NCBI GenBank assembly: GCA_021323595.1
Contig: JAJPKR010000046.1
Coordinates: 1 to 46,178, forward strand
Origin: Terriglobia bacterium
Lineage (GTDB): Bacteria; Acidobacteriota; Terriglobia; Terriglobales; SCQP01
Direction of reading: 5' to 3'
Length of the DNA: 46,178 nucleotides
The notes beneath the pieces are model-generated. The model was not told the DNA's origin, made no database searches, and worked only from the letters and a program-made list of their open reading frames with translations. The position numbers were made by a program, and so were the translations under genes. Every line of letters starts with the position of its first letter. The stretch's first letter is position 1. Below, piece by piece: positions 20,994 through 33,818 of this stretch.

Positions 20994-22271
20994 TCAGGGC
21001 GTAACCGGGCCGGAATTCGCGCGCGCCGGCGTATCCGGCTGTCGCTGCAGGCGCCGCGCTACGGCTTCGACTTGCCCCATCACCCGCAGCGTGTTCAGTC
21101 CGAGCACTTGCCGAATCTGCGCATCGGTGTAGCCGCGGTCCATCAGTCCCTGTACGATGCGGGGAATGTCTTGGGCGCCGTCCATGCCTTGCGGCGCCCA
21201 ATCGATGCCGTCCCAGTCGGAACCGAGCCCGACGTGATCGATGCCGGCGACCTGAATGATGTGCACGAACTGATCCATCAGAGCGCGGAACGGCGGGCGC
21301 GTGAAATGCTCGGCGGCGAAGCGGCGCTGGAAGGCGTCGATGTGCGGATAGCCGTGCAGCCAGTCGCCGTCCCAAGCCGCGTCCACCGGTCCTTCCGCGC
21401 GCGCCTCGTCGGCGGCGAACTTGGCCGCCTGATCGCGCGCCGCTTGGCTGTCGAAGGCGGCGTAATCGTTGACCTGCACCACGCCGCCGTTGCGGGCGAC
21501 CGCGCGCAGCATCGCGTCGGTCATGTTGCGCGGCGCGTTGACCAGCGCCCGCGCCGAGGAATGCGAGGCGATGACCGGCGCCTGAGTGGTTGCGATCGCG
21601 TCCCAGAACGTCTTGTCGGAAACGTGGGAGATGTCCACGATCATGCCCAGCCGGTTCATCTCGGCGACGACCTCCTTGCCGAACGGCGTCAGGCCGTTGT
21701 GGTGATGGACGCGAGCGTCGTCCTGGTCGCCCGAGGAGTCGGCCCAATCGTTGGTGTTCGACCACGTCAGCGTCATGTAGCGCACGCCCAGGCGGTAATA
21801 GTCGCGCAGGACCGCCAGATCGTCGGCGATGGCGTGCCCGCCCTCGACGCCCATCAGCATGGCGAAGCGATGTTCGGCGGTGAGGCGGCGAATATCGGCG
21901 GCGGTCGTCGCCAGACCCAATTGCTCCGGATGCGCCTCGGCCTGGCGGCGGACGGCGTCAATCAGATCGAGGGCGCGCTCGATGGTTTGCGGACCGAAGC
22001 GAGGCTCGACCCAAATCGAGAAGAACTCCGCCTTCAGCCCGCCTTGGCGCGCCTTGTCCAGCGAGACCATGCGCTGCGTCGGCTTCGTGAAGTCGAAGCC
22101 GCCGTCGAGCATCCATTGGGTCGTGTCCGCGTGCGTGTCGATCACGATGGCGTCGTGGGCCAAGGCGATCGCGCGCGCCGAGGGCGTGGGGCCGGCGGCC
22201 GGCGGATTGGCCGCCAGCGCCAAGCCGGCGAACAGCAACAATAAGGCGCAGACGCGCCCGGCGATGCGCAT
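20994..22271 (-). CDS. Membrane dipeptidase (M19 family)
   Basis: This is a 425-residue zinc-dependent renal-type dipeptidase with an N-terminal signal peptide (CALLLLFAGLALAANP). Metal-binding residues are readable: IDTHADTTQW (His47, Asp49), the bridging Glu in GVEGGHAIAD, VDISHVSDKTFWDA and IASHSSARALVN, plus the conserved LGSDWDG. The family hydrolyses dipeptides, often with a D-residue, in the periplasm. The ATG is preceded by AAGGAGG with seven bases between, an ideal site that rules out the 14-residue longer form. It stands alone, convergent with the metallophosphoesterase gene (130 bp between stops) and followed upstream on the same strand by the VWFA gene. Confidence 0.95.
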   Translation of the reverse strand: MRIAGRVCALLLLFAGLALAANPPAAGPTPSARAIALAHDAIVIDTHADTTQWMLDGGFDFTKPTQRMVSLDKARQGGLKAEFFSIWVEPRFGPQTIERALDLIDAVRRQAEAHPEQLGLATTAADIRRLTAEHRFAMLMGVEGGHAIADDLAVLRDYYRLGVRYMTLTWSNTNDWADSSGDQDDARVHHHNGLTPFGKEVVAEMNRLGMIVDISHVSDKTFWDAIATTQAPVIASHSSARALVNAPRNMTDAMLRAVARNGGVVQVNDYAAFDSQAARDQAAKFAADEARAEGPVDAAWDGDWLHGYPHIDAFQRRFAAEHFTRPPFRALMDQFVHIIQVAGIDHVGLGSDWDGIDWAPQGMDGAQDIPRIVQGLMDRGYTDAQIRQVLGLNTLRVMGQVEAVARRLQRQPDTPARANSGPVTP

Positions 22272-22516
22272 GAGAATTCCTCCTTGCCGGCGGAAATCGC
22301 CATCGTACGCCAACTGCCGCTCCTGGAGCCAGCGCCCAAGCCGGTACGCGGCCAGGGATCAGAAGCCAGCAGGGGCGGCGAAGGCAGATAGCCGCCACCA
22401 GGATCGGCAACGAGCAGCCGGTACTGAGTCAGCGGTCATCCTCCTCCGCCTCCTCCGCGCGTCTCTGCTTCCGCACGCTTGGGCCTATCAGGCCTGGGCC
22501 GTGCCGCCGCACGACC

Positions 22517-25324
22517 TTATTGTTTCAGTAAGCGCAGGGAGGTCTGGCTGCCGAAACGGCGAAAGTCCTGGTAATGAAAGGCCAACTGTTCGCCTTCACC
22601 TTGCGGGAGCACGTCGGAGGCATGAATTTCGGTGGGCGCCAGGCAGCCGAGGTCGGTGTTGAAACGGTATTGCACGCTGAAATTCATGATCGCGGCTCCG
22701 CTGGCGGAGTCGATCTCGATCCGTTCCGGCGTGTCCGTGTCCATTTCGAGCCAGACGCGGCCTGACAGCCGGTCGCCCAGCGCGCTGGCGGGGGCCGCGG
22801 GCGAGAGCGCGCGGCGATGGAAGCCCAAGACCCATTGCTGGCCGTGCGCGGAGGCGCGCGGCTCGGGGCGGGAAAAGATTAAATCGCGCTGGTGCGGCGC
22901 GTCGAGTAGCGTCAAGGCGAAGGCCAGACCCTGAAAGCGGCCATGGGTGAGGTCGTAGCGCGAAAATTCGCGCGCCTTGCCATGGCGCGCGCGCGTCGCC
23001 CCGCCCGTGGCGGCGGCGTCCAAATAGCGGCCGCCGACGCGAATGGGCGCGCGGAACTCGGTGAAGCGCCCGTCGCGGCCGCGGATCACCGCGTAATTGC
23101 TCTCGATCACCACGCCGCGCGCGGGCGGAGCGCCGGCCGATACGCGGGCCGCGACCAGCCGCTCGTCGAGCACTTCGACCGCCCCGGCCTGATTGAAGCG
23201 GTCCTCGAACTGCGCGGCGCTGGCGGCAAGCGCGCGGCGCAGCCGGGCGAGCAGGCGCGCATCGGCCGGTTGCGCTTGCGGCATCGGCGTCAGTTCCGCG
23301 ATCAGCGGCTCGAGCGCGGCGGCGCGATTCGCATCCAGCGCCACGGCGCGCTGCAAGTGCGCGCGCGCCAGCGGCGGCGAAATCGCCAAATAGTAGCGGC
23401 CGAGCGCCTCGTGAATGCCTGCGGTTTCGTCGCCCAGCGCCAGGGCGCGCTCGTAATCGAAGGCCGAGCGTTGCCGGTCGCCCAGTTGCGCCAGGCACTC
23501 CGCCTGCAGCGCATAGGCGGCGCCGCTCTGCCGCAGGCTGGCGGCCGCGAGCACCCGCAGCGCTTGGCGGCAGTGCCGGGGCGCCAAACCGCGCGCCCGC
23601 GCCAGCAGCGCGGCGGGTGCGTCTTGGCGCAACGCGGCGCCCGCCACCGCGCGCGGCGGCGCCGGCAGCCCGGCGTGGATGGGCAGGGTGACCGAGGCGA
23701 AGTTCGAAGTCCCCGCCTCCGTCAGGGTGATGAGATAGGTGTAGTCGCCCGCCGGCACGATGACGTCGGCGGTGTAATGCACCGCGCCTTGCTGCGGCTG
23801 CGCCGGGCGAAACAGATCCACGGCTGCGGAGCGCACGCGGCCGCCGCGGTCCAAAATCGTGCGCACCGCCACCAGCGAGTCCACCGCCCCACCCGGCCCT
23901 CGCCGCTGCCAATGCAGCGCCGCCGCCGGAATCGTGCATTCGACGTTGACTTGCCAGCGGCCGCCGCTCGCCTCGGGCGCGGCGGCTTGCACCCGGATGG
24001 GGATCTGCTGCACGGCATCGGCGTAGTAGCCGCGCCGGGTGCGGAGATGCACGCCCGGGCGCCGCGAGCGCAGGGTGATCGCGCGATAACGGCCGTCGAG
24101 CTTTTGGTCGGTGGGCTGATAGGAGACGTAATAGGTCCCTTCGAAATCGCCCACGGCGCGCTCGATGGTTTGCGTCAGGTCGTTGTTTCCGAAAAATGCG
24201 CGGCCGCCGGTGTCGGCGGCCAGTTCCGCGAGCGAGTCTTCGGGCCCATGCACCGATTCGTGCTGGAAGTCCAACGCGCGCTCCTGCAAACTCGGCATCG
24301 TCTGGTCCACGTCGTTGAGGCCGTTGCGCAGCAGCGGCGGGCCGCTGTCGGCGGCATTGCCCACCGGCGCGTCGGCGCGCAGGCCATGCGTGTCAATGCA
24401 GTCGAATGTGACGCGCGCGCGCACCGCCGCGCTGGTCAGCAAGCGCAGCATATCGGCATAAGCGCCGGTGGCCTTGGTGCGGATATCGAAGTTGTCGCCG
24501 AAATACATGCGAAACGCCAGCAGCGCCAAGCGGCCCGGATTCAGCCGGAAGCCGTCGCCCAAATAGACCAGCCGTTTCTCGCCGCCGAAGGCGCGCATCG
24601 CTTCCACCAACTCGCCCAGGACGCTTTCGATCGTCTCCAGATCGCTGGTCTCGCGCGCGATGTAGAGCGACGCCACGTCCTCGCCGCAATGCAGCTCCGC
24701 AGCCGCCGTCAGATCCTGCACGCGATTGCCGGCATGGTTCTCCGGCACTCCCATGACCAAGCACTCCCGCATGGCGAAGAGCATGTCGCGATCGGCGGCC
24801 GTGGTCAGCGGCAGCGATTGCGCTTGCAGACGGTCGAGCGCCGTCATCAGCAGATGACGGTCGTTGGTGAAGATTTGCCACAGCCGCACTCCGGGGCCCA
24901 GCGAGATCACCGAGATCAGATCGTCGGGAGATTGATTGCGCTCGATCCAGGCGCGCACGGCGGCGATGGCGCGGCGGCGATCCTGGAAGGGCGTGCTCGA
25001 TTCGTCGAAGACGAAAGCGATGTAGCGCACGTGGCCGGTGGCGGCTGGGGTGCCAACGCTTGCGCCGCCGGTAGGAACCAGCGCCGGCGGGACGGGCGCC
25101 GCCACCGCGGGCTCGAAGCTGAGGAGCCGCTGCGGCCGGCCATTTTCCTCCAAGATGAAGTCGCTCGCGCGCAGATCGCGGATGGGCCGGCCGGAACGGT
25201 CGGTGGCGACGACGGACAGATTGACCAAATGGCTCTCGGCGCGAAAGACGGGAACGGGCGGCGATTGCGCCCCCAACGCCATCGCGGTTGCACCGATCAA
25301 AGCGGCGATGCCAGCCAGCCGCAT
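22517..25324 (-). CDS. VWFA-domain exported protein (acidobacterial type)
   Basis: This protein has 935 residues. The signal peptide is MRLAGIAALIGATAMALGAQ. Next comes a conserved segment, SHLVNLSVVATDRSGRPI with DLRASDFILEENGRPQRLLS, typical of the VWFA-related domain described in Acidobacteria. The VWFA domain follows; its metal site reads FVFDESSTPF, a D-x-S-x-T variant of DxSxS. A beta-rich segment and helical repeats resembling TPRs (about residues 615-700, ALQAECLAQLGDRQRSAFDY) come next, then a C-terminal region of unknown fold. GGAAGG sits five bases before the ATG, and a -10-like TATACT is 18 bases upstream. The gene is divergent from the sulfatase-like gene. Its role is probably in protein-protein contacts in the periplasm; its function is unknown. 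Confidence 0.85.
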   Translation of the reverse strand: MRLAGIAALIGATAMALGAQSPPVPVFRAESHLVNLSVVATDRSGRPIRDLRASDFILEENGRPQRLLSFEPAVAAPVPPALVPTGGASVGTPAATGHVRYIAFVFDESSTPFQDRRRAIAAVRAWIERNQSPDDLISVISLGPGVRLWQIFTNDRHLLMTALDRLQAQSLPLTTAADRDMLFAMRECLVMGVPENHAGNRVQDLTAAAELHCGEDVASLYIARETSDLETIESVLGELVEAMRAFGGEKRLVYLGDGFRLNPGRLALLAFRMYFGDNFDIRTKATGAYADMLRLLTSAAVRARVTFDCIDTHGLRADAPVGNAADSGPPLLRNGLNDVDQTMPSLQERALDFQHESVHGPEDSLAELAADTGGRAFFGNNDLTQTIERAVGDFEGTYYVSYQPTDQKLDGRYRAITLRSRRPGVHLRTRRGYYADAVQQIPIRVQAAAPEASGGRWQVNVECTIPAAALHWQRRGPGGAVDSLVAVRTILDRGGRVRSAAVDLFRPAQPQQGAVHYTADVIVPAGDYTYLITLTEAGTSNFASVTLPIHAGLPAPPRAVAGAALRQDAPAALLARARGLAPRHCRQALRVLAAASLRQSGAAYALQAECLAQLGDRQRSAFDYERALALGDETAGIHEALGRYYLAISPPLARAHLQRAVALDANRAAALEPLIAELTPMPQAQPADARLLARLRRALAASAAQFEDRFNQAGAVEVLDERLVAARVSAGAPPARGVVIESNYAVIRGRDGRFTEFRAPIRVGGRYLDAAATGGATRARHGKAREFSRYDLTHGRFQGLAFALTLLDAPHQRDLIFSRPEPRASAHGQQWVLGFHRRALSPAAPASALGDRLSGRVWLEMDTDTPERIEIDSASGAAIMNFSVQYRFNTDLGCLAPTEIHASDVLPQGEGEQLAFHYQDFRRFGSQTSLRLLKQ

Positions 25325-25342
25325 GGTCGCCTTCCGGCTGCG

Positions 25343-25348
25343 AGTATA
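25343..25348 (-). promoter_or_regulatory. -10 element of the VWFA gene
   Basis: Minus-strand TATACT matches five of six -10 positions. It lies 18 bases before the ATG, with a GGAAGG ribosome-binding site between them. No -35 of comparable quality is seen at the expected distance. Confidence 0.4.
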
Positions 25349-25606
25349 GCCCAATGGGTTCAGATGGCGGATGGCGGGGCGCCGTTGGCAGCGGCGGCGC
25401 CCCCGCCGGGGCGGCCGCGTGCGGCCGGGCGCCGGCGGCTGGCGCCGGGTGTAGTCGCCCAATGCGGGCGGGCGGGGCTGGAGAACCAGAGCTCGGTCCG
25501 TGCTGAGCGCGGCATGGTTGGGCTCCGGCACGCTCGCGCCTGAGCCCGGCATGGCCGCCGGCCGCCGCGAGACCGCCGCTGGCCTGGTTCTCGAGGACAG
25601 GGCATC

Positions 25607-27760
25607 ATGGAAGCCATGCGGTTTTATCTTCCCGGTTGCGCGCTGCTTGGGCTCGCCGGCGTTTTGGCGCTTGCGCCGCCCGCGCGCGCGCAGGCGCGCC
25701 CCAACTTGCTCCTGATCACGCTCGATACCGTGCGCGCCGATCATCTCGGCATCTACGGCGATCGCGCGGCGCGCACGCCGCATCTCGATGCGCTGGCGCG
25801 GCAAGGCGTCTGGTTCGAGTACGCCTTCACCACCGTGCCCTTGACGCTGCCTTCGCACGCCGCCATCCTCACCGGCACCTATCCGTTCGACAACGGCGTC
25901 CGCTCCCAGCCCGGCTTCCGCCTTGAGGATCGCCTGCCGACCTTAGCCACGATCCTAGACCGCGCCGGTTACGCCACCGGCGCCGTGCTCGGCTCCTCCA
26001 TTCTCGACCGCCGCTTCGGCCTGGCGCGCGGCTTTCAGGCCTACGACGACCAAATCTCCGGCGCTGTGGCCGAAGAATATGAGGGCTTGCCTGCCTCGAA
26101 GCGCTCCGCCGCCGAGGTCGTGCGGCGCGGCTGGGCTTGGCTGGAAGCCGAGCGGCGGCACTCCCCGGCGCGGCCGTTCTTCCTGTGGCTGCACTTTTAC
26201 GATGCGCATCTGCCGTACCTCCCGCATCGCGGCGCCGGCGGGAGCTTTCCCGCCACCTATGACGGCGAAATCGCCTACATGGACGCATGCTTGGGCCGCC
26301 TCTTCGCGGATCTCCAGCGCGCCGGTCTTTACGACAACACGGCCATTTTCGTGGTCGCGGACCATGGCGAGGGCCTGGGCGATCATGGCGAGTCCACCCA
26401 CGGCTTCTTTATTTACGACTCGACGATCCGCGTGCCGTTGATCGTGAAGGCGCCGGGCGCGGGGCCGCAGGGCATTCGCGGCGCCGGCCCAGCGCAGCCC
26501 AATGACGAACTCGCCAGCACCGTGGATATCGCGCCGACCGCGCTGCGGCTGCTCGATCTCCCCGTGCCGGCCGAGATGCAGGGCACGCCGCGGCTCGCGG
26601 CGGTGCTGGGGCGCGGCCGCGACGCCGACACGCCCGCCTATGCCGAGACCTTCTTTCCGCTGCTGAGCATGGGCTGGAATCCGCTGCGCGCCCTGATCTC
26701 GGGCCCCTCCGGCCGGCTCATGAAATACATCGAGGCGCCCCGGCCCGAGCTGTACGACTTGAGCCGCGATCCGCGCGAAACGCGCGACCTGGCCGCGGCC
26801 CAGCAGGCGCGCGCCAATAGCATGCTCGCGGCGCTCGACGACTTCGTGCGGGCACGCGCGCCGCGCGCCGCGCCGGACAGCCGCATGCCCGTGGATGCCG
26901 CGACCGCGCGGCTATTTTCCAGCCTCGGCTACGCCGGCGCCGTGCGCGGCGGCACGCCCGTCTTCGTCACCAACTTGCCCGATCCCAAGGATCGCGTGCA
27001 CGAGGAGGAGGCGATCCTGACCGCGCTGCGGACCTATGAAGCGCATGACTATCCCCGGGCCTTGCGGCAACTGCGCGCCATTCTCGCGAGCGACCCCCGC
27101 CAGCCGATGGCGCTCGACGCCTTGGGCACCATCCAGTTCGCCGAGCACGATCTCAACGCCGCGCGCGCCACCTACCGCGCCTTGATCGCGGCCGCGCCCT
27201 ATGATTCGACCGCCTATGCCGAGCTGGCGCATACGGAAGCCCTGCTCGGGCATCGCGCCGAAGCCGAGCGCCTCTATCGCAAGAACTTCGCGCTCGATCC
27301 CTCGAACGGCCGCGCCCTGCGCGAGTTGGGACTGCTCTTGATCGAAGACGGCAAGCTCGCCGAGGCCAAGGGCGATCTCGAGCGCGCGCTCGCGCTCCAG
27401 CCGGGCGATCCCTTCGCGCTCAACGGCTTGGGGCAAATTCAGGCGCAGCAGGGGGATTTCGCCGCCGCCGCGCAGTCGCTCGAGCAAGCCGTCGCGGCGG
27501 ACGCCAGTCAACTGCCGCCCCGCCTGAATTTGGGCTTCGTTTACCTGCGCCTCAATCAGCCGCAAAAGACCGCCCAGTTGATGGAGCAAACCTTGCGCCG
27601 TGCGCCGCGCGCGCCGCAAGCCTACGCCGAGCTGGCCGTCGCCCGCCTGGAACTCGGCGACCGTGCCGCCGCCGCCGCCGCCGTGCGGCGAGCCCTGGCG
27701 CTCGATCCTCAAAACTCGCTGGCCCGCCAGGCGCAGGCGGCGCTGCAACGGCAGCCGTAG
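25607..27760 (+). CDS. Sulfatase-like hydrolase fused to C-terminal TPRs
   Basis: This protein has 717 residues. After a signal peptide (residues 1-29) comes an alkaline-phosphatase-superfamily sulfatase domain. NLLLITLDTVRADHLGIYG (33-51) carries Asp40 and other metal ligands, and FVVADHGEGLGDHGE (248-262) supplies Asp252 and His253. At the position of the sulfatase C/S-x-P-x-R motif the sequence is T80-L-P-S-H, so the cysteine or serine that matures to formylglycine is replaced by Thr and the Arg by His. This suggests a Thr nucleophile, as in phosphoethanolamine transferases, rather than a classical sulfatase. Residues of about 465-717 form several TPRs. The next gene starts 14 bp after the stop, so the two are probably co-transcribed. 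Confidence 0.88.
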   Translation: MEAMRFYLPGCALLGLAGVLALAPPARAQARPNLLLITLDTVRADHLGIYGDRAARTPHLDALARQGVWFEYAFTTVPLTLPSHAAILTGTYPFDNGVRSQPGFRLEDRLPTLATILDRAGYATGAVLGSSILDRRFGLARGFQAYDDQISGAVAEEYEGLPASKRSAAEVVRRGWAWLEAERRHSPARPFFLWLHFYDAHLPYLPHRGAGGSFPATYDGEIAYMDACLGRLFADLQRAGLYDNTAIFVVADHGEGLGDHGESTHGFFIYDSTIRVPLIVKAPGAGPQGIRGAGPAQPNDELASTVDIAPTALRLLDLPVPAEMQGTPRLAAVLGRGRDADTPAYAETFFPLLSMGWNPLRALISGPSGRLMKYIEAPRPELYDLSRDPRETRDLAAAQQARANSMLAALDDFVRARAPRAAPDSRMPVDAATARLFSSLGYAGAVRGGTPVFVTNLPDPKDRVHEEEAILTALRTYEAHDYPRALRQLRAILASDPRQPMALDALGTIQFAEHDLNAARATYRALIAAAPYDSTAYAELAHTEALLGHRAEAERLYRKNFALDPSNGRALRELGLLLIEDGKLAEAKGDLERALALQPGDPFALNGLGQIQAQQGDFAAAAQSLEQAVAADASQLPPRLNLGFVYLRLNQPQKTAQLMEQTLRRAPRAPQAYAELAVARLELGDRAAAAAAVRRALALDPQNSLARQAQAALQRQP

Positions 27761-27774
27761 CACGAGGCGGGCGC

Positions 27775-29301
27775 ATGGCGGACGGCTTGCGGTATCTGGT
27801 ACGACGGCGCGCGGCGCAGGGCGCGCGGCTCATGGCTTTGGGGGCCTGGGCCGCCGCGGCTGCGCTGAGCTTGGCGCCCGGCGGCGGCGTTTGCGCGGCG
27901 GTGGCGCGGCCGGCGGGCAGCTTGCCCGCGGCCGGCGCCCGGCCGGGCGCGCCGCGTTCGGTGCGTCCCGAGGCGGCTCCGGCGCGCGTCGAGTTCACCC
28001 GCTATGCCGCCGCCGCACCCATCCTCGCCGCCTTTCGCGGCAGCGGTTTGCCCGGCAGCGGCATCGCGACTCCTTCCGCGTGGGATCGCTGGATTCGCGC
28101 CCATGACGCCGAGGTGCGCGGGCGCATCGCCCGCGGCGTCGAAGACTCGATCACCAACCTGATTTTTTACGGAACCTCCTTTACCCGCCAGCCGCGCCTC
28201 GCGGATTGGTCCGTTGCCCTCGATGCCCGCGGGCGGCTGACGCCGCTGGCGGCGGCGCGCCTCCGGGATTTTCTCGCCGCCGTGCGCGCCCTCGGTCCCG
28301 CGCGCGGCCCGCGGCCGCTGCAGGCGGCCGGCGCCGGCGGACGCCTCGCTTTCGCTGCGCGCTTTTTGGCGCGCGCGCGGCCGCCGGCGCAATGGCCCGC
28401 CTACCTGGAGGCCAACCTGCGCCGCTTCGTCGCCGAGCAGACCGCGTATCAGCGGCGGCTGGCGGCGGCGCAGGCCTCCGGCAACCGGCAAGATATCGTG
28501 CTCGCCCGCAGCTTCCTCTTCGAGCATCGCGGCCTCTCCGTCGATACCTCGCTCATGCCCAATTTCGCGCTGACCGATACCTTGCGCGTGCTCTTGGCCA
28601 AGGGCGTGTTGCATGCGGGGCAAATTCACCGCATCGCCGTGATCGGGCCGGGCCTGGACTTCGCCGATAAGCGCGAAGGCTACGATTTTTATCCCGAGCA
28701 GACGCTGCAGCCATTTGTGCTGCTCGATGGCGTCGCCGGCCTAGGCTTGGGCCGAGCCCCGGATCTGGCCCTCGCGACGCTCGACATCAATCCCCAAATC
28801 AACGCTCATGTCGCCGGCCTGGCGGCGCGCGCCGCTGCGGGCCGGCCCTATGTGCTCCAACTGCCGCTGGCCGACGACGTGCCTTGGACGCCGGCGGCGC
28901 TGGCCTATTGGCGCAGCGCCGGCGATCATATCGGTCATCCGGCGCCGCCCCTCGCTCCGCCGCCGCAGGTGCGTCACGTCAAAGTGCGCGCCGTCGCCTT
29001 TGCGCCCGCCTGGGAGGCGCGCGTGCGCCCCGTCAATCTCGATATCGTGGCGCAGACCATGCCCGGCGCCGGCTTCGATCTGATCGTTGCCACCAACATT
29101 CTCGTCTATTACGATCCGCTCGAGCAGGCGCTGGCCCTCGCCAACATCACGGCGATGCTGGCGCCGGGCGGCATCTTCATGGCCAATGACGTGCTGCCTG
29201 CCGTGCATCCGCCGGATCTCGAATTTCTCGGCCGCCGCGGATTGCCTTACACCACCGACCATAGCTTCGGGGACAGCGTGGTCGTATATCGCAGGCGCTA
29301 A
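27775..29301 (+). CDS. Exported protein with CheR-like methyltransferase C-terminus
   Basis: This is a 508-residue protein of unknown function. A hydrophobic N-terminus (residues 20-44, GAWAAAAALSLAP) looks like a signal peptide or anchor. The C-terminal half has the pattern of class I SAM methyltransferases. RIAVIGPGLDF (286-296) is the glycine-rich motif I, ATLDINPQI (334-342) ends strand 2 in an acidic residue, FDLIVATNILVYYDP (434-448) is motif IV as in CheR, and LAPGGIFMAND (462-472) is the following strand. Residues 100-280 are helical and unassigned. ATG 27832 is an alternative start just before the hydrophobic segment. It lies 14 bp after the sulfatase-like gene and ends before a hairpin. 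If it is truly exported, access to SAM would be a puzzle, so it may be a membrane-anchored or non-catalytic homologue. Confidence 0.8.
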   Translation: MADGLRYLVRRRAAQGARLMALGAWAAAAALSLAPGGGVCAAVARPAGSLPAAGARPGAPRSVRPEAAPARVEFTRYAAAAPILAAFRGSGLPGSGIATPSAWDRWIRAHDAEVRGRIARGVEDSITNLIFYGTSFTRQPRLADWSVALDARGRLTPLAAARLRDFLAAVRALGPARGPRPLQAAGAGGRLAFAARFLARARPPAQWPAYLEANLRRFVAEQTAYQRRLAAAQASGNRQDIVLARSFLFEHRGLSVDTSLMPNFALTDTLRVLLAKGVLHAGQIHRIAVIGPGLDFADKREGYDFYPEQTLQPFVLLDGVAGLGLGRAPDLALATLDINPQINAHVAGLAARAAAGRPYVLQLPLADDVPWTPAALAYWRSAGDHIGHPAPPLAPPPQVRHVKVRAVAFAPAWEARVRPVNLDIVAQTMPGAGFDLIVATNILVYYDPLEQALALANITAMLAPGGIFMANDVLPAVHPPDLEFLGRRGLPYTTDHSFGDSVVVYRRR

Positions 29302-29479: not shown

Positions 29480-30085
29480 TCAGTTGGCGTCGGGGGCGAT
29501 GGTGACCAGGCGCAGGCGCAGGGGCTGATCGGCGGAAATCTTCACGTCGCCGTACTGCTCCATGAAGGCGGTGGCGTTGCCGTCCAAAATATAGAGCGCC
29601 AGGCCGTGCACGCCCGCGACGGCTTCGGCGGAAGTCATGTTCAGCTTGTAATCGCCGGGAATGTCGCCGCTTGGCATGTCGTGGTTGACCGAGGTGTCGG
29701 CGGCGTCGCCGAGCGAGCTGAACTTGTCGATGTAGGCCTGAAAGATCACGGCCTGCAGCGGAATTTTTGCGCCGGAAGGAGTATCTAATTCGGTGAACTT
29801 CACCGCCAGGCCGCCCCGCCGGTTCTTTTTTTGGTAAGGCAGCACGGAGACGATGCTGCCCTGTAGCAAGGAGTGCTTGGGGATCACGATCTCCTTGCCT
29901 GCCTTGCCTGGGTAGGTGACTTCGACGGTGACCGGATCGCCTACCTTCGCCGTCTTCGAGTTCAGCGGCGTCTTCAAATGACCATCGAAGCGGGTATGCA
30001 GGGGGATCGCCGGCGCCGCCGGCGGGGCGCTCTGGGCGCCCCACGCAAAGGCGCAAAACAGCAGCATCAAGGCAGCAAGTCGCAT
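29480..30085 (-). CDS. Small exported protein of unknown function
   Basis: This is a 201-residue protein. A signal peptide (MRLAALMLLFCAFAWGAQSA) is followed by a beta-rich domain. It includes LKTPLNSKTAKVGDPVTVEV, IPKHSLLQGSIVSVLP and GGLAVKFTELDTPSGAKIPL. This pattern recurs in small exported proteins of Acidobacteria and resembles the beta-barrel core of TrbI/VirB10-like proteins; the resemblance is only by eye. GGGAGG lies five bases before the ATG, fixing the start. It is divergent from the second TonB-dependent receptor, 283 bp away, and converges on the methyltransferase-like gene. Confidence 0.8.
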   Translation of the reverse strand: MRLAALMLLFCAFAWGAQSAPPAAPAIPLHTRFDGHLKTPLNSKTAKVGDPVTVEVTYPGKAGKEIVIPKHSLLQGSIVSVLPYQKKNRRGGLAVKFTELDTPSGAKIPLQAVIFQAYIDKFSSLGDAADTSVNHDMPSGDIPGDYKLNMTSAEAVAGVHGLALYILDGNATAFMEQYGDVKISADQPLRLRLVTIAPDAN

Positions 30086-30247
30086 CGCATCCTCCCGGAA
30101 CGGACTTCCTGGGTCACACCTGATCACGCTACGCCCGCCGCCCCGGCCGAGGCAAGGTCTGGCGGAAGATTCCAAAATTCGAACGGATAAGCGCGACAAA
30201 ATCCCATTTTTCATAGAGATGGAAGTGGCTCAGGAACCAATTTATTG

Positions 30248-30275: not shown

Positions 30276-30368
30276 TATGACTCTGAGTGTAGGAAGCTGT
30301 ACCGGCGTGCAGTCGGTCGAGTGATGGGTGACAAGAAACGATTCAATCAAGACTCCGGAGGAATGAGC

Positions 30369-33300
30369 GTGCGGAACCTCATGCGGCTTGGCCTTGGACT
30401 CTTCTCGCTGCTGGTGATCGTGGGCCTCAGCGCCGGCGCGGCGCGGGCGCAGACCGCCGAAGGGCAGATCACCGGCGTGATCTATGACACGACCGGCGCG
30501 GTCATCCCCAATGCGGTGGTCACGATAACCAATAACGGCACCGGCATCGCGCAGACGGCGAAATCCGACTCAGCCGGTCTCTATCGCTTCACGCTGGTGC
30601 CCTCGGGCGATTACACGGTGACGGCGGCGGCGCCGAGCTTCGCGACGCAGAAATTTACCGCCATCCACGTGGACCCGAGCCAGACCGTACCGCTGAACAT
30701 CACCCTCAAGCCGGCCTCGGCGCAGCAAACGGTGGAGGTGACGTCGGCGGCGCCGCTGGTGCAGACGGCCAACTCGAACTTGACCACGACCGTCAACGCC
30801 GCCACCATCACCAACACGCCGCTCAATGGCCGCAACGTGTACGACCTGGCCTTCCTGGCGCCGCAGGTGACGCAGGGCATGGATTACCGGCCGGCGGCGG
30901 GCGGGCAGCGCGAGGCGGGCACGACCTACACCTTCAACGGCACCGACAACAACGACGATTTCAGCGAGGGCAATAACGCGGCGACGCCGCCGCTCGAGGC
31001 GGTGGGCGAGTTCACGATGCTCACCAACGACATGAGCGCGCAGTACGGCCGCGGCACCGGGGCGGTGATCAGCGCCGTCGGCAAGAGCGGCACCAATCAG
31101 TTCCATGGCGTGCTGTACGAGTTCAATCGCAACCGCTCGCTGAACTCCTCCGACTTCTTCGCTAACAAGCAGGGCGAGCCCAAGCCGGGTTACGTGCGTA
31201 ACCAGTTCGGCGGCGCGTTGGGCGGCCCGATTATTCGCGACAAGCTGTTCTTTTACGCCGTCTGGGATCAAGTGACGCTGAACCGCAAGTCCAACCTCAC
31301 AGCGCTCGGCCCGAACTCCGCGGAGTTCGCCGCCCTCCAGGCCAATGCCAGCCCGATCGCCGCGTATTATCTGAAAAAGTACACGCCGTTCGTCTCCGAC
31401 AGCCAGGCCAACTGCGGCGCGGCCGACGTCGGCGACCTCAACCTGGGCTGCACCGCTCTGGTGGACTCCACCACGGATCCGCAAAAGAACCCCTACATCC
31501 GGATTGACCAGACCTTCCATAGCGGCGACAGCCTGAGCTTCGTCGGCACTTGGAACTTCGAAACCTACACGGACCCGTACGGCGGGGGCTACCTCACCAA
31601 GACGCCGGTGCCCGGGATCACCAACAACAGCAACCACGACCTGTCGCTCATCTACAAGCACATCTTTACCCCCAACGTGCTGAACCAGCTGACCATCGGC
31701 CATGTCAAGAACGGCAGCTTGTTTCACGAGGAAGACGCGAATCCGAGCGACCCCGAGGTGTTTATTGACAGCGCCATCGACGGCGGCAGCGGCTGGGGCA
31801 TGGGCGCATACCACACCGGTGTCCAGCAGGAGTTCGTCACTTCGCGCTGGCAATTTCAGGACAACCTCAGCTACGTCGTCGGCCGCCACAACATGACCTT
31901 CGGCGGTTCGATCAACCCGGGCAATCTGTATCGCTTCTGGGATCTGGGCGGCCCCGGCTACTACGAATTCGCCAATGCCGGCGGGCTGGATTATGGAAGT
32001 CCTACCCAGTGCACTGGGCCGAATACGCCGAGAGGGTGCACGCCGACGCCGGCTTCGCAGGGCGATCTCACAAGCAATGGTGGCATCACCGGAGTGAACT
32101 ATAACGACAGCAATTTCCAAAACGACTTTCCTTATTTCGAGGAATTCGCGGTTGATCCCCGGACGGGCAAGAAGGCGAATGCCTACCGGCACTACACCTA
32201 TCACGATGCCGATCTATTCATGCAGGACGACTGGCGGGTGACGAACCGGCTGAGCTTGCAGCTCGGCTTGCGCTGGGATCGCTTCGACCCGGCGTCCGAG
32301 GTCAACAATCTGATTGCGCAGTTCACGAACTTCAATTGCCTGACGAGCGATTTGGCTTCGCCGCAGAGCGTCGCCTGCATCGCTAATGCCCGCACCGGTA
32401 TCGTCCCGACGATGTGGAAGCCGCGCAACGGCGATCTCGGCCCGCGCTTCGGCTTCGCCTATGACCTCTTCGGCGACGGCCGCACCTCGCTGCGCGGCGG
32501 CTACGGCATCTATTACGACCGCATCTTCGACAATGTCTGGTCGAACGGGGCGTGGAACCCGCCCATCTACGCGCTGCTGGACACGGACGTCACCGCCGCC
32601 GGCAACACCATCTACTACACGAACCCGGCCTCCGCGGTGCCGAGCTATGTGCCGACACCCAGCGGCCAGCCGACGTTCCGCGTCTCCATTCGCACGATGG
32701 AGCAGAATCTGAAGGACACCTCCGGCGATAACTGGTACCTGGGCATCGAGCACCAGTTCTACCAGAACTTCTTGCTGCGCGTGAACTACCAAGGTTCGGT
32801 GGGCCGCCACGAGCCGGTGCTGATGAACTTCAACCGCTACGACGGTCTGGATTACACGCCCACGCTCAGCGCTCCGCAGCCGAACCCGATCTACACCGGG
32901 TTCAACTACCGCGCCAACGGCGTGAACTCCAACTATAACTCCCTAGTCACCGAGATCCAGAAGCGCATGGCCAACGGCTTGCAGTTCCAGTTCAGCTATA
33001 CCTGGTCCAAGCTGATGGACACCAACTCAGATCTCTTTGCCGGTTCGACCACGCAGGGTAGTTACAGCCAGCCGTACTATTACGTGTCGAATAGCCATAT
33101 GAACCTGGAGAAGGCGGCGGGCGCCTTCGACCACACCCATAACTTCAAGCTGAATTTCAGCTATGAGATTCCGTTCTTCTCGGCGCAGAACGGGTTTCTG
33201 GGACACACGCTCGGCGGCTGGCAGTTGACCGGCTTTTACCAGGGCTATTCCGGCCACCCAATCGAGGTCTACACTAGCCGCCGCCGCTTCAAGGGCAATG

Positions 33301-33818
33301 CGTTGGACGCGAACGGGAATCCTGAGAACCTGGGCGGCGACTACAATTACGATGGAGTTTACAACGATCACCCGGATTTTGTCGGAAGCAGCATCAGCGC
33401 CGCGTACGCGACCAACCAGAGCCCGGCCGACGGGATCTTCGTAGACAACAACAAGATCGGCTGCGGCTTTGCCGGCCAGGCATCGACGAACACGGCGGCG
33501 TGCAATACCGCCAACGGTGTCTCGACGCCCAACTCCCTGTTCGTGAACCCGCCCGGAGTCGGGCCGCGGTTTGGTACTCTCGGACGCAATATTTTCCGCA
33601 GCCCGTGGTTCAATGGCATGGACGCGGCCCTATTCAAAAACGTGAAAGTGGGGGAGGGCAAGAACCTTCAAATCCGGTTCGAGTCCTTCAATACGCTTAA
33701 TCACCCGAACTTCGACGGCATCAACACCAACCTCAACAGTTCGGGCTTTGGCAAGGCCCATTTCCTTGCCGGCACACCTTCGCGGCTGCTCCAGTTAGGC
33801 TTGCGCTTTACGTTCTAA
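30369..33818 (+). CDS. TonB-dependent receptor, Oar-type (second copy)
   Basis: This is an outer-membrane receptor of about 1149 residues. A signal peptide (MRLGLGLFSLLVIVGL...ARAQ) precedes a carboxypeptidase-regulatory-like domain (ITGVIYDTTGAVIPNAVVTI). The plug (TFNGTDNNDDFSEGNNAATP, MSAQYGRGTGAVISAVGKSG) and a long barrel follow, ending LQLGLRFTF with the terminal Phe. GGAGG is seven bases before GTG 30369 but only one base before ATG 30363, so I favour the GTG; the two differ by two residues. The gene is driven by the promoter at 30248-30275 and ends at a strong terminator, so it is probably monocistronic. It and the copy at 14408 share architecture but differ in plug and barrel, implying different substrates. 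The ligand is unknown. Confidence 0.92.
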   Translation: MRNLMRLGLGLFSLLVIVGLSAGAARAQTAEGQITGVIYDTTGAVIPNAVVTITNNGTGIAQTAKSDSAGLYRFTLVPSGDYTVTAAAPSFATQKFTAIHVDPSQTVPLNITLKPASAQQTVEVTSAAPLVQTANSNLTTTVNAATITNTPLNGRNVYDLAFLAPQVTQGMDYRPAAGGQREAGTTYTFNGTDNNDDFSEGNNAATPPLEAVGEFTMLTNDMSAQYGRGTGAVISAVGKSGTNQFHGVLYEFNRNRSLNSSDFFANKQGEPKPGYVRNQFGGALGGPIIRDKLFFYAVWDQVTLNRKSNLTALGPNSAEFAALQANASPIAAYYLKKYTPFVSDSQANCGAADVGDLNLGCTALVDSTTDPQKNPYIRIDQTFHSGDSLSFVGTWNFETYTDPYGGGYLTKTPVPGITNNSNHDLSLIYKHIFTPNVLNQLTIGHVKNGSLFHEEDANPSDPEVFIDSAIDGGSGWGMGAYHTGVQQEFVTSRWQFQDNLSYVVGRHNMTFGGSINPGNLYRFWDLGGPGYYEFANAGGLDYGSPTQCTGPNTPRGCTPTPASQGDLTSNGGITGVNYNDSNFQNDFPYFEEFAVDPRTGKKANAYRHYTYHDADLFMQDDWRVTNRLSLQLGLRWDRFDPASEVNNLIAQFTNFNCLTSDLASPQSVACIANARTGIVPTMWKPRNGDLGPRFGFAYDLFGDGRTSLRGGYGIYYDRIFDNVWSNGAWNPPIYALLDTDVTAAGNTIYYTNPASAVPSYVPTPSGQPTFRVSIRTMEQNLKDTSGDNWYLGIEHQFYQNFLLRVNYQGSVGRHEPVLMNFNRYDGLDYTPTLSAPQPNPIYTGFNYRANGVNSNYNSLVTEIQKRMANGLQFQFSYTWSKLMDTNSDLFAGSTTQGSYSQPYYYVSNSHMNLEKAAGAFDHTHNFKLNFSYEIPFFSAQNGFLGHTLGGWQLTGFYQGYSGHPIEVYTSRRRFKGNALDANGNPENLGGDYNYDGVYNDHPDFVGSSISAAYATNQSPADGIFVDNNKIGCGFAGQASTNTAACNTANGVSTPNSLFVNPPGVGPRFGTLGRNIFRSPWFNGMDAALFKNVKVGEGKNLQIRFESFNTLNHPNFDGINTNLNSSGFGKAHFLAGTPSRLLQLGLRFTF

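Follow-up and report, generated by a model that had tools for sequence, protein, structure and literature searches.

An exported-type protein family with a class I methyltransferase-type fold in Acidobacteriota

Acidobacteriota encode a family of proteins in which an export-type N-terminus precedes a methyltransferase-type domain. The member described here lies in the window, the whole analysed stretch of 46,178 nucleotides from a Terriglobia bacterium. The family is an exported variant of the known class I methyltransferase-type fold, and its distribution is phylum-wide but patchy. It has no library model of its own and is found mostly in Acidobacteriota. We see about an even chance that these are extracytoplasmic proteins with a maintained, probably adenosyl-type pocket, which work with Oar-type barrels and exported TPR proteins; their chemistry is only proposed. 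A search of the open-licence PMC literature by title and start of abstract found no paper on such an exported protein. The original prediction of a forward-strand frame combining an export-type N-terminus with methyltransferase motifs is borne out by the frame itself, by its family and by the structural model. The gene and its parts are as follows.

27775..29301 (+): gene of the exported-type methyltransferase-fold protein; open reading frame with ATG start, 508 aa; family alignment A2 (75 sequences)
27775..27897 (+): predicted export signal, basic n-region and hydrophobic segment, residues 1 to about 41; heuristic scoring; modelled as helix 2-32, then disorder
28003..28599 (+): helical N-terminal domain, residues 77-275; AlphaFold2 models
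28630..29295 (+): class I methyltransferase (Rossmann-like) domain, residues 286-507; model, Foldseek, VIA-align
28645..28662 (+): motif I GPGLDF, residues 291-296; G291, G293, L294 and D295 in 75/75, P292 and F296 in 74/75
28669..28713 (+): conserved loop that follows motif I and is specific to the family, residues 299-313 (K..D.YP.Q..QP); A2 conservation
28783..28785 (+): D337, acidic residue closing strand 2; 75/75
29092..29112 (+): T440-N441..Y445-Y446 after strand 4, at the position of CheR RN..IY by profile alignment to CheR; T440 and Y445 in 75/75, N441 and Y446 in 74/75

The window protein and 74 relatives, which are 33-51% identical to it, make up alignment A2. Of 111 relatives returned by a scan of 84,980 species genomes, 80 were kept, and almost all of these come from records that carry the name of an Acidobacteriota group. 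Among the 80 records, six are named for other phyla (Bacillota, Actinomycetota, Acidimicrobiia and three Verrucomicrobia) and two (HR08 and HR10) have no phylum name. A2 takes 74 of the 80 loci and leaves out L039, L045, L065, L069, L101 and L104, whose frames are broken or open. Matches were found in three of 60 related genomes, the window's own genome counted, and in none of 13 other genomes of the window's family. Among 299 genomes of the class, 44 match at E <= 0.001, many of them weakly and partially, and the 75-sequence profile has matches at E <= 1e-10 in 24 of 396 genomes of the phylum. The gene is patchy yet spread over Acidobacteriota, and is missing from the window's close kin searched. 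One member (L086) comes from an isolate record, Pyrinomonas methylaliphatogenes K22. Several genomes hold two members (L108/L111, L096/L097 and L069/L075), and a tandem pair occurs once (L079, 6116-7495 and 7920-9293). Copies broken across two frames, in L045 and in L002 and L004 of one genome, suggest decay or sequencing error. More distant relatives (L137 at 536-2143; L140 at 972-2741 on the reverse strand; L133-L136; L141) keep RG(L/H).(S/T/A)(D/T), GPG and (A/F)(T/F)N...Y, and from these motifs the distant set may represent a superfamily with lipoprotein branches. A further candidate, L142, proved to be no real homologue and was dropped.

The fold is predicted with confidence. AlphaFold2 with A2 gives the window protein a mean pLDDT of 89.4 and a pTM of 0.84, and the model runs from helix 2-32 through a disordered linker and the helical domain (77-275) to an alternating alpha/beta domain (286-507). 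GPGLDF (291-296) follows strand 286-290, D337 ends strand 332-337, and FDLIVATNILVYY (434-446) spans the end of strand 434-439. Foldseek finds 157 matches at E <= 0.001, and the 50 best listed are mainly methyltransferases, with OvsM (3.1e-7) and CheR1 (8.3e-7) among the top ranks. VIA-align places Bacillus subtilis CheR 5ftw first (Z 15.1, rmsd 2.9, 193 residues aligned). The domain thus shows the marks of a class I methyltransferase, namely a Rossmann-like fold like that of solved methyltransferases, a Gly-rich loop after strand 1 and an acidic residue where strand 2 ends. Library searches with the single protein are weaker. The methyltransferase matches of Pfam in the last part of the protein are all sub-threshold, CheR leading with 20.7 bits against a gathering cut-off of 27, and those of NCBIfam likewise fall under the curated cut-offs. 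PF01739 matches 24 of the 25 A1 members at E <= 0.1, with a best value of 1.7e-6. Searching solved structures by sequence gave weak matches only, the best value being 0.27 with the single protein and 0.0012 with the profile. Pfam alone would be insufficient, and it is the identity to 74 relatives, the invariant motif residues and the confident model together that settle the identity of the fold. The helical N-terminal domain, modelled alone, reaches a pLDDT of 88.1. Foldseek finds no match for it at E <= 0.001 and 29 at E <= 10, and no Pfam family matches more than one of the 75 members in this region at E <= 0.1; absence of a fold match does not prove a new fold.

The fold had been called CheR-like at first sight. 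Its class I nature stands and CheR is among the nearest structures, but the likeness is not exclusive, since other methyltransferases tie in the structure comparison: MtfA reaches Z 14.9 and several others lie within 1 of CheR. MtfA (3g2o), OvsM (9bxj) and NodS (3ofk) share the class I fold at Z 13-15, tied with CheR, whereas their sequence identity is 11-20% in the rows listed, and their substrate-specific parts and N-terminal domain differ. Profile comparison of the family with five CheR proteins of related genomes gave a probability of 94.9 over 141 columns. This alignment pairs D337 with the Asp of the CheR TD motif, and TN...Y with CheR RN..IY. CheR (PF01739) and the family have the class I fold and a C-terminal half in common, and the N and Y of RN..IY are kept (N in 74/75, Y in 75/75). 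The Arg of that motif, present in all five CheR proteins, is Thr in all 75 family members. The motif I loop of the family is also unlike that of CheR and is joined to a longer conserved segment, and no CheR N-terminal domain is among the matches listed for the window protein. CheR itself has no classical acidic residue before the first glycine, so the absence of this residue in the family says little. Family members are of the exported type, are poor in cysteine and have other neighbour genes; no chemotaxis domains are among the 25 families listed for the upstream or for the downstream neighbours, lists which are partial. The export-type signals and low cysteine speak against a cytoplasmic, chemoreceptor-directed CheR role.

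Conservation is concentrated at the putative ligand site. Twelve residues are identical in all 75 sequences of A2 (G291, G293, L294, D295, P307, Q309, Q312, P313, D337, H345, T440 and Y445), and K299, D304 and Y306 are identical in 74. In the model, G291, G293, L294 and D295, then D337, and then T440/Y445 fall just behind strands 1, 2 and 4, the places at which class I methyltransferases bind SAM. Invariant residues at the ligand edge indicate that the pocket is maintained and under strong constraint. The model keeps the ligand edge of a SAM-type pocket, the feature whose loss would have spoken against the original reading. From the fold and the positions of the conserved residues, the ligand is probably of the adenosyl type (SAM, SAH, methylthioadenosine or a related nucleoside). 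Ten distant relatives (L031 and L133-L141) all keep the GPG of motif I, and eight of them keep the Asp, which is E in L135 and N in L138. We consider it unlikely that the family is an exported pseudo-enzyme in which the fold is merely a protein-binding scaffold. Pfam and NCBIfam matches under curated cut-offs and a motif I loop unlike that of CheR would agree with such a scaffold, and TPR and barrel neighbours suggest protein-protein work. However, it is along the ligand edge of the fold that conservation is highest, and a mere scaffold would not need this.

A hydrophobic, export-like segment had been noted at the N-terminus of the window protein, and the protein does look exported. With a hydrophobic segment defined as an 11-residue stretch of mean Kyte-Doolittle value of at least 1.5, read upstream of the core in the open frame, 74 of the 75 members have one (L053 is the sole member under the threshold) versus 47 of 150 controls, which come from reading this DNA in its other two frames (19 of 150 reach 2.0). 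Net positive charge is found in the 12 residues ahead of the segment in 66/75 members, the segment outscores the best core window in 62/75, and a small-x-small pattern for a cleavage site, itself loose, is present in 74/75. By this hydrophobicity heuristic, the features of a Sec-type signal (basic n-region, hydrophobic core, small cleavage-site residues) are found across the family. The window protein's own stretch, LMALGAWAAAA after a basic n-region, has a mean of 1.73, which is among the lowest in the family, and the best window of its own core reaches 1.99; the heuristic nature of the scoring and the weakness of this segment both count against the proposed explanation. Behind its signal, the window protein also carries about 30 additional low-confidence residues rich in Ala, Gly and Pro (residues ~37-66, 27883-27972), a linker which the other A1 members are without. 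Cysteine makes up 0.135% of the family core and 38 of the 75 members are cysteine-free. In neighbour genes it makes up 1.242% of 136 cytosol-like proteins, which have no hydrophobic N-terminus, versus 0.683% of 138 N-hydrophobic ones, a heuristic sorting in which the N-hydrophobic set takes in membrane proteins. Cysteine depletion is an independent sign of export. All ten distant relatives have a hydrophobic N-terminal stretch by eye, weak in L136 and L141, and in L137 and L140 it ends in a lipoprotein-type cysteine that is more convincing than any in the main family. Lipoprotein anchoring within the main family was rejected (loose pattern in 4/75, unconvincing by eye). A predicted extracytoplasmic location of the family is well supported, and we infer that the proteins end up in the periplasm or at the cell surface.

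SAM is cytoplasmic, and a membrane-anchored enzyme with its methyltransferase domain on the cytoplasmic side, or a cytoplasmic protein made from a downstream start, would meet it there. The window gene has in-frame GTG codons at residues 43 and 63 and a TTG at residue 50. Such an arrangement is nevertheless quite improbable. The positive charge before the segment would leave the C-terminus outside by the positive-inside rule, the cysteine depletion and the lipoprotein-like sites of two of the ten distant relatives argue in the same direction, and in L018 the open frame starts at the signal's own ATG, directly after a stop codon. A wrongly assigned start codon was ruled out since the hydrophobic segment recurs over the family at the frequency given above; a downstream start that removes it would discard a family feature.

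The preferred extracytoplasmic location raises the question of the ligand. Most members have Sec- rather than Tat-like signals and would be exported unfolded, so the ligand would have to be found outside. We know of no SAM supply outside the cytoplasm, and searches of the open-licence PMC literature brought none to light. Twin-arginine export was rejected as a general answer to this question; the loose pattern occurs in 4/75 members, and in L056 and L084 it is poorly placed by eye. It is unlikely that the family is a true extracytoplasmic SAM-dependent methyltransferase acting on an envelope protein, a glycan or an imported compound, using SAM that is either acquired externally (from lysed neighbours, or by import through a barrel) or exported by an unknown route. 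A complete class I fold, an invariant Gly-rich loop with D337, the retained CheR-type T/R-N-x-x-x-Y region and the export-type N-terminus all suit a true enzyme, and barrel neighbours could import a donor or a substrate. Against it stand the lack of any extracytoplasmic SAM pool known to us, the replacement of the CheR Arg by Thr throughout the family, and the scarcity of twin-arginine-like signals, by which a folded protein loaded with SAM could be exported.

The neighbours of the window gene are as follows.

20994-22313 (-): gene for an M19 membrane dipeptidase; PF01244 3.5e-105
22517-25858 (-): large gene upstream on the opposite strand; no homologue among those listed for the other loci; its product presumably resembles the VWFA-related proteins common in Acidobacteriota
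25607..27760 (+): hydrolase of the sulfatase/alkaline-phosphatase superfamily, fused to TPRs and itself equipped with an N-terminal hydrophobic segment; matches to Pfam Sulfatase (3.8e-46) and TPRs
29480..30214 (-): opposite-strand gene between the methyltransferase-fold gene and the barrel gene, 244 aa; without a Pfam hit at E <= 0.001
30321..33818 (+): second gene downstream, for an Oar-type TonB-dependent outer-membrane barrel that includes a carboxypeptidase-regulatory-like domain; PF25183 2.1e-141, PF13620 3.8e-22

The spacer of 14 bp (27761-27774) between the sulfatase frame and the methyltransferase-fold frame on the same strand is confirmed from the frame ends at 27760 and 27775, and in the window the two genes are probably co-transcribed. 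The window sulfatase-like protein carries LTLPSH at the position of the formylglycine sulfatase motif Cys/Ser-x-Pro-x-Arg, and its homologue in L041 carries LTLPAH. With LTLPSH in place of that motif, its nucleophile is probably threonine, by analogy with the phosphotransferases of the superfamily. A joint function of this Thr-type sulfatase and the methyltransferase-fold protein had been suggested from the spacing. Same-strand spacing in the window and the adjoining homologue in L041 would fit a two-gene functional unit, but the pair is not conserved: L041 is the one case among 80 other family loci, and there the gene lies on the opposite strand in divergent orientation. Pfam Sulfatase is found in 2/78 upstream neighbours, the window being one, and is absent among the 25 families listed for 75 downstream neighbours. 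Sulfatase homologues at E <= 1e-40 occur in four of 19 other genomes, none on the contig that carries the family gene. Such a unit is therefore highly improbable.

Oar-type barrels are much more frequent companions. PF25183 occurs in 20/78 upstream and 15/75 downstream neighbours versus 2/104 genes four places away (Fisher p 4e-7), a comparison limited by the lack of phylogenetic independence among loci of related genomes and by the shorter length of the control genes (31441 residues in 104 versus 40117 in 78). With barrels assigned by clustering, one is adjacent in 33 of 81 loci and lies within three genes in 44. Nineteen of the 21 upstream barrels share the strand, and in 16 of the nineteen the gap is at most 118 bp, overlaps counted. 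Other genes of the same loci adjoin a barrel at 4/227 (N-hydrophobic), 4/169 (middle) and 9/251 (cytosol-like) positions. Each of nine genomes (G000 and eight others) has 41-56 PF25183 matches, or by estimate about one gene in a hundred, and abundance does not explain the adjacency. TPR_2 is found in 9/78 upstream and 12/75 downstream neighbours; the 25 families listed for the 104 controls, a shortened list, do not include it. The window fits this pattern because its sulfatase carries TPRs and a barrel lies two genes downstream. This adjacency suggests a functional link of the family to the barrel. Weighing against it, 48 of the 81 loci have no adjacent barrel, and the window's own barrel is two genes away, with an opposite-strand gene in between.

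A precedent for such a pairing comes from Myxococcus xanthus, where Oar is reported to be needed to secrete the protease PopC, which first accumulates in the periplasm (PMC6434023). There too an Oar-type TonB-dependent barrel is paired with an exported protein, but PopC is a subtilisin-type protease with no recognised signal peptide, and the proposed link of the Acidobacteriota family to barrels is one of gene adjacency. The precedent makes cargo of the barrel a real alternative to an enzyme serving import. In the explanation we propose, the protein would cross the inner membrane, mostly by a Sec-type signal, and stand in the periplasm or at the cell surface. The class I methyltransferase fold at its C-terminus would keep a pocket, probably for SAM, SAH, methylthioadenosine or a related nucleoside, and the helical N-terminal domain would provide the second half of an active or binding site. 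Its partners would be the Oar-type TonB-dependent barrels and the exported TPR proteins encoded alongside. The protein would either act on the load of the barrel or be itself carried or docked by the barrel. More boldly, and with a rather low probability, the family may be an Acidobacteriota extracytoplasmic methyltransferase-type enzyme which receives its adenosyl ligand from outside the cytoplasm and acts with, or is carried by, Oar-type barrels. If true, this would place methyl chemistry, or the scavenging of adenosyl ligands, in the bacterial envelope.

SAM enzymes are usually treated as cytoplasmic. Export signals together with a maintained SAM-type pocket would imply either that such a ligand is present beyond the inner membrane or that the methyltransferase fold has been put to a new use. 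To our knowledge, no cargo of the Acidobacteriota Oar-type barrels has been described, and the family offers a handle on these strikingly expanded barrels. The member in Pyrinomonas methylaliphatogenes K22 makes the question testable.
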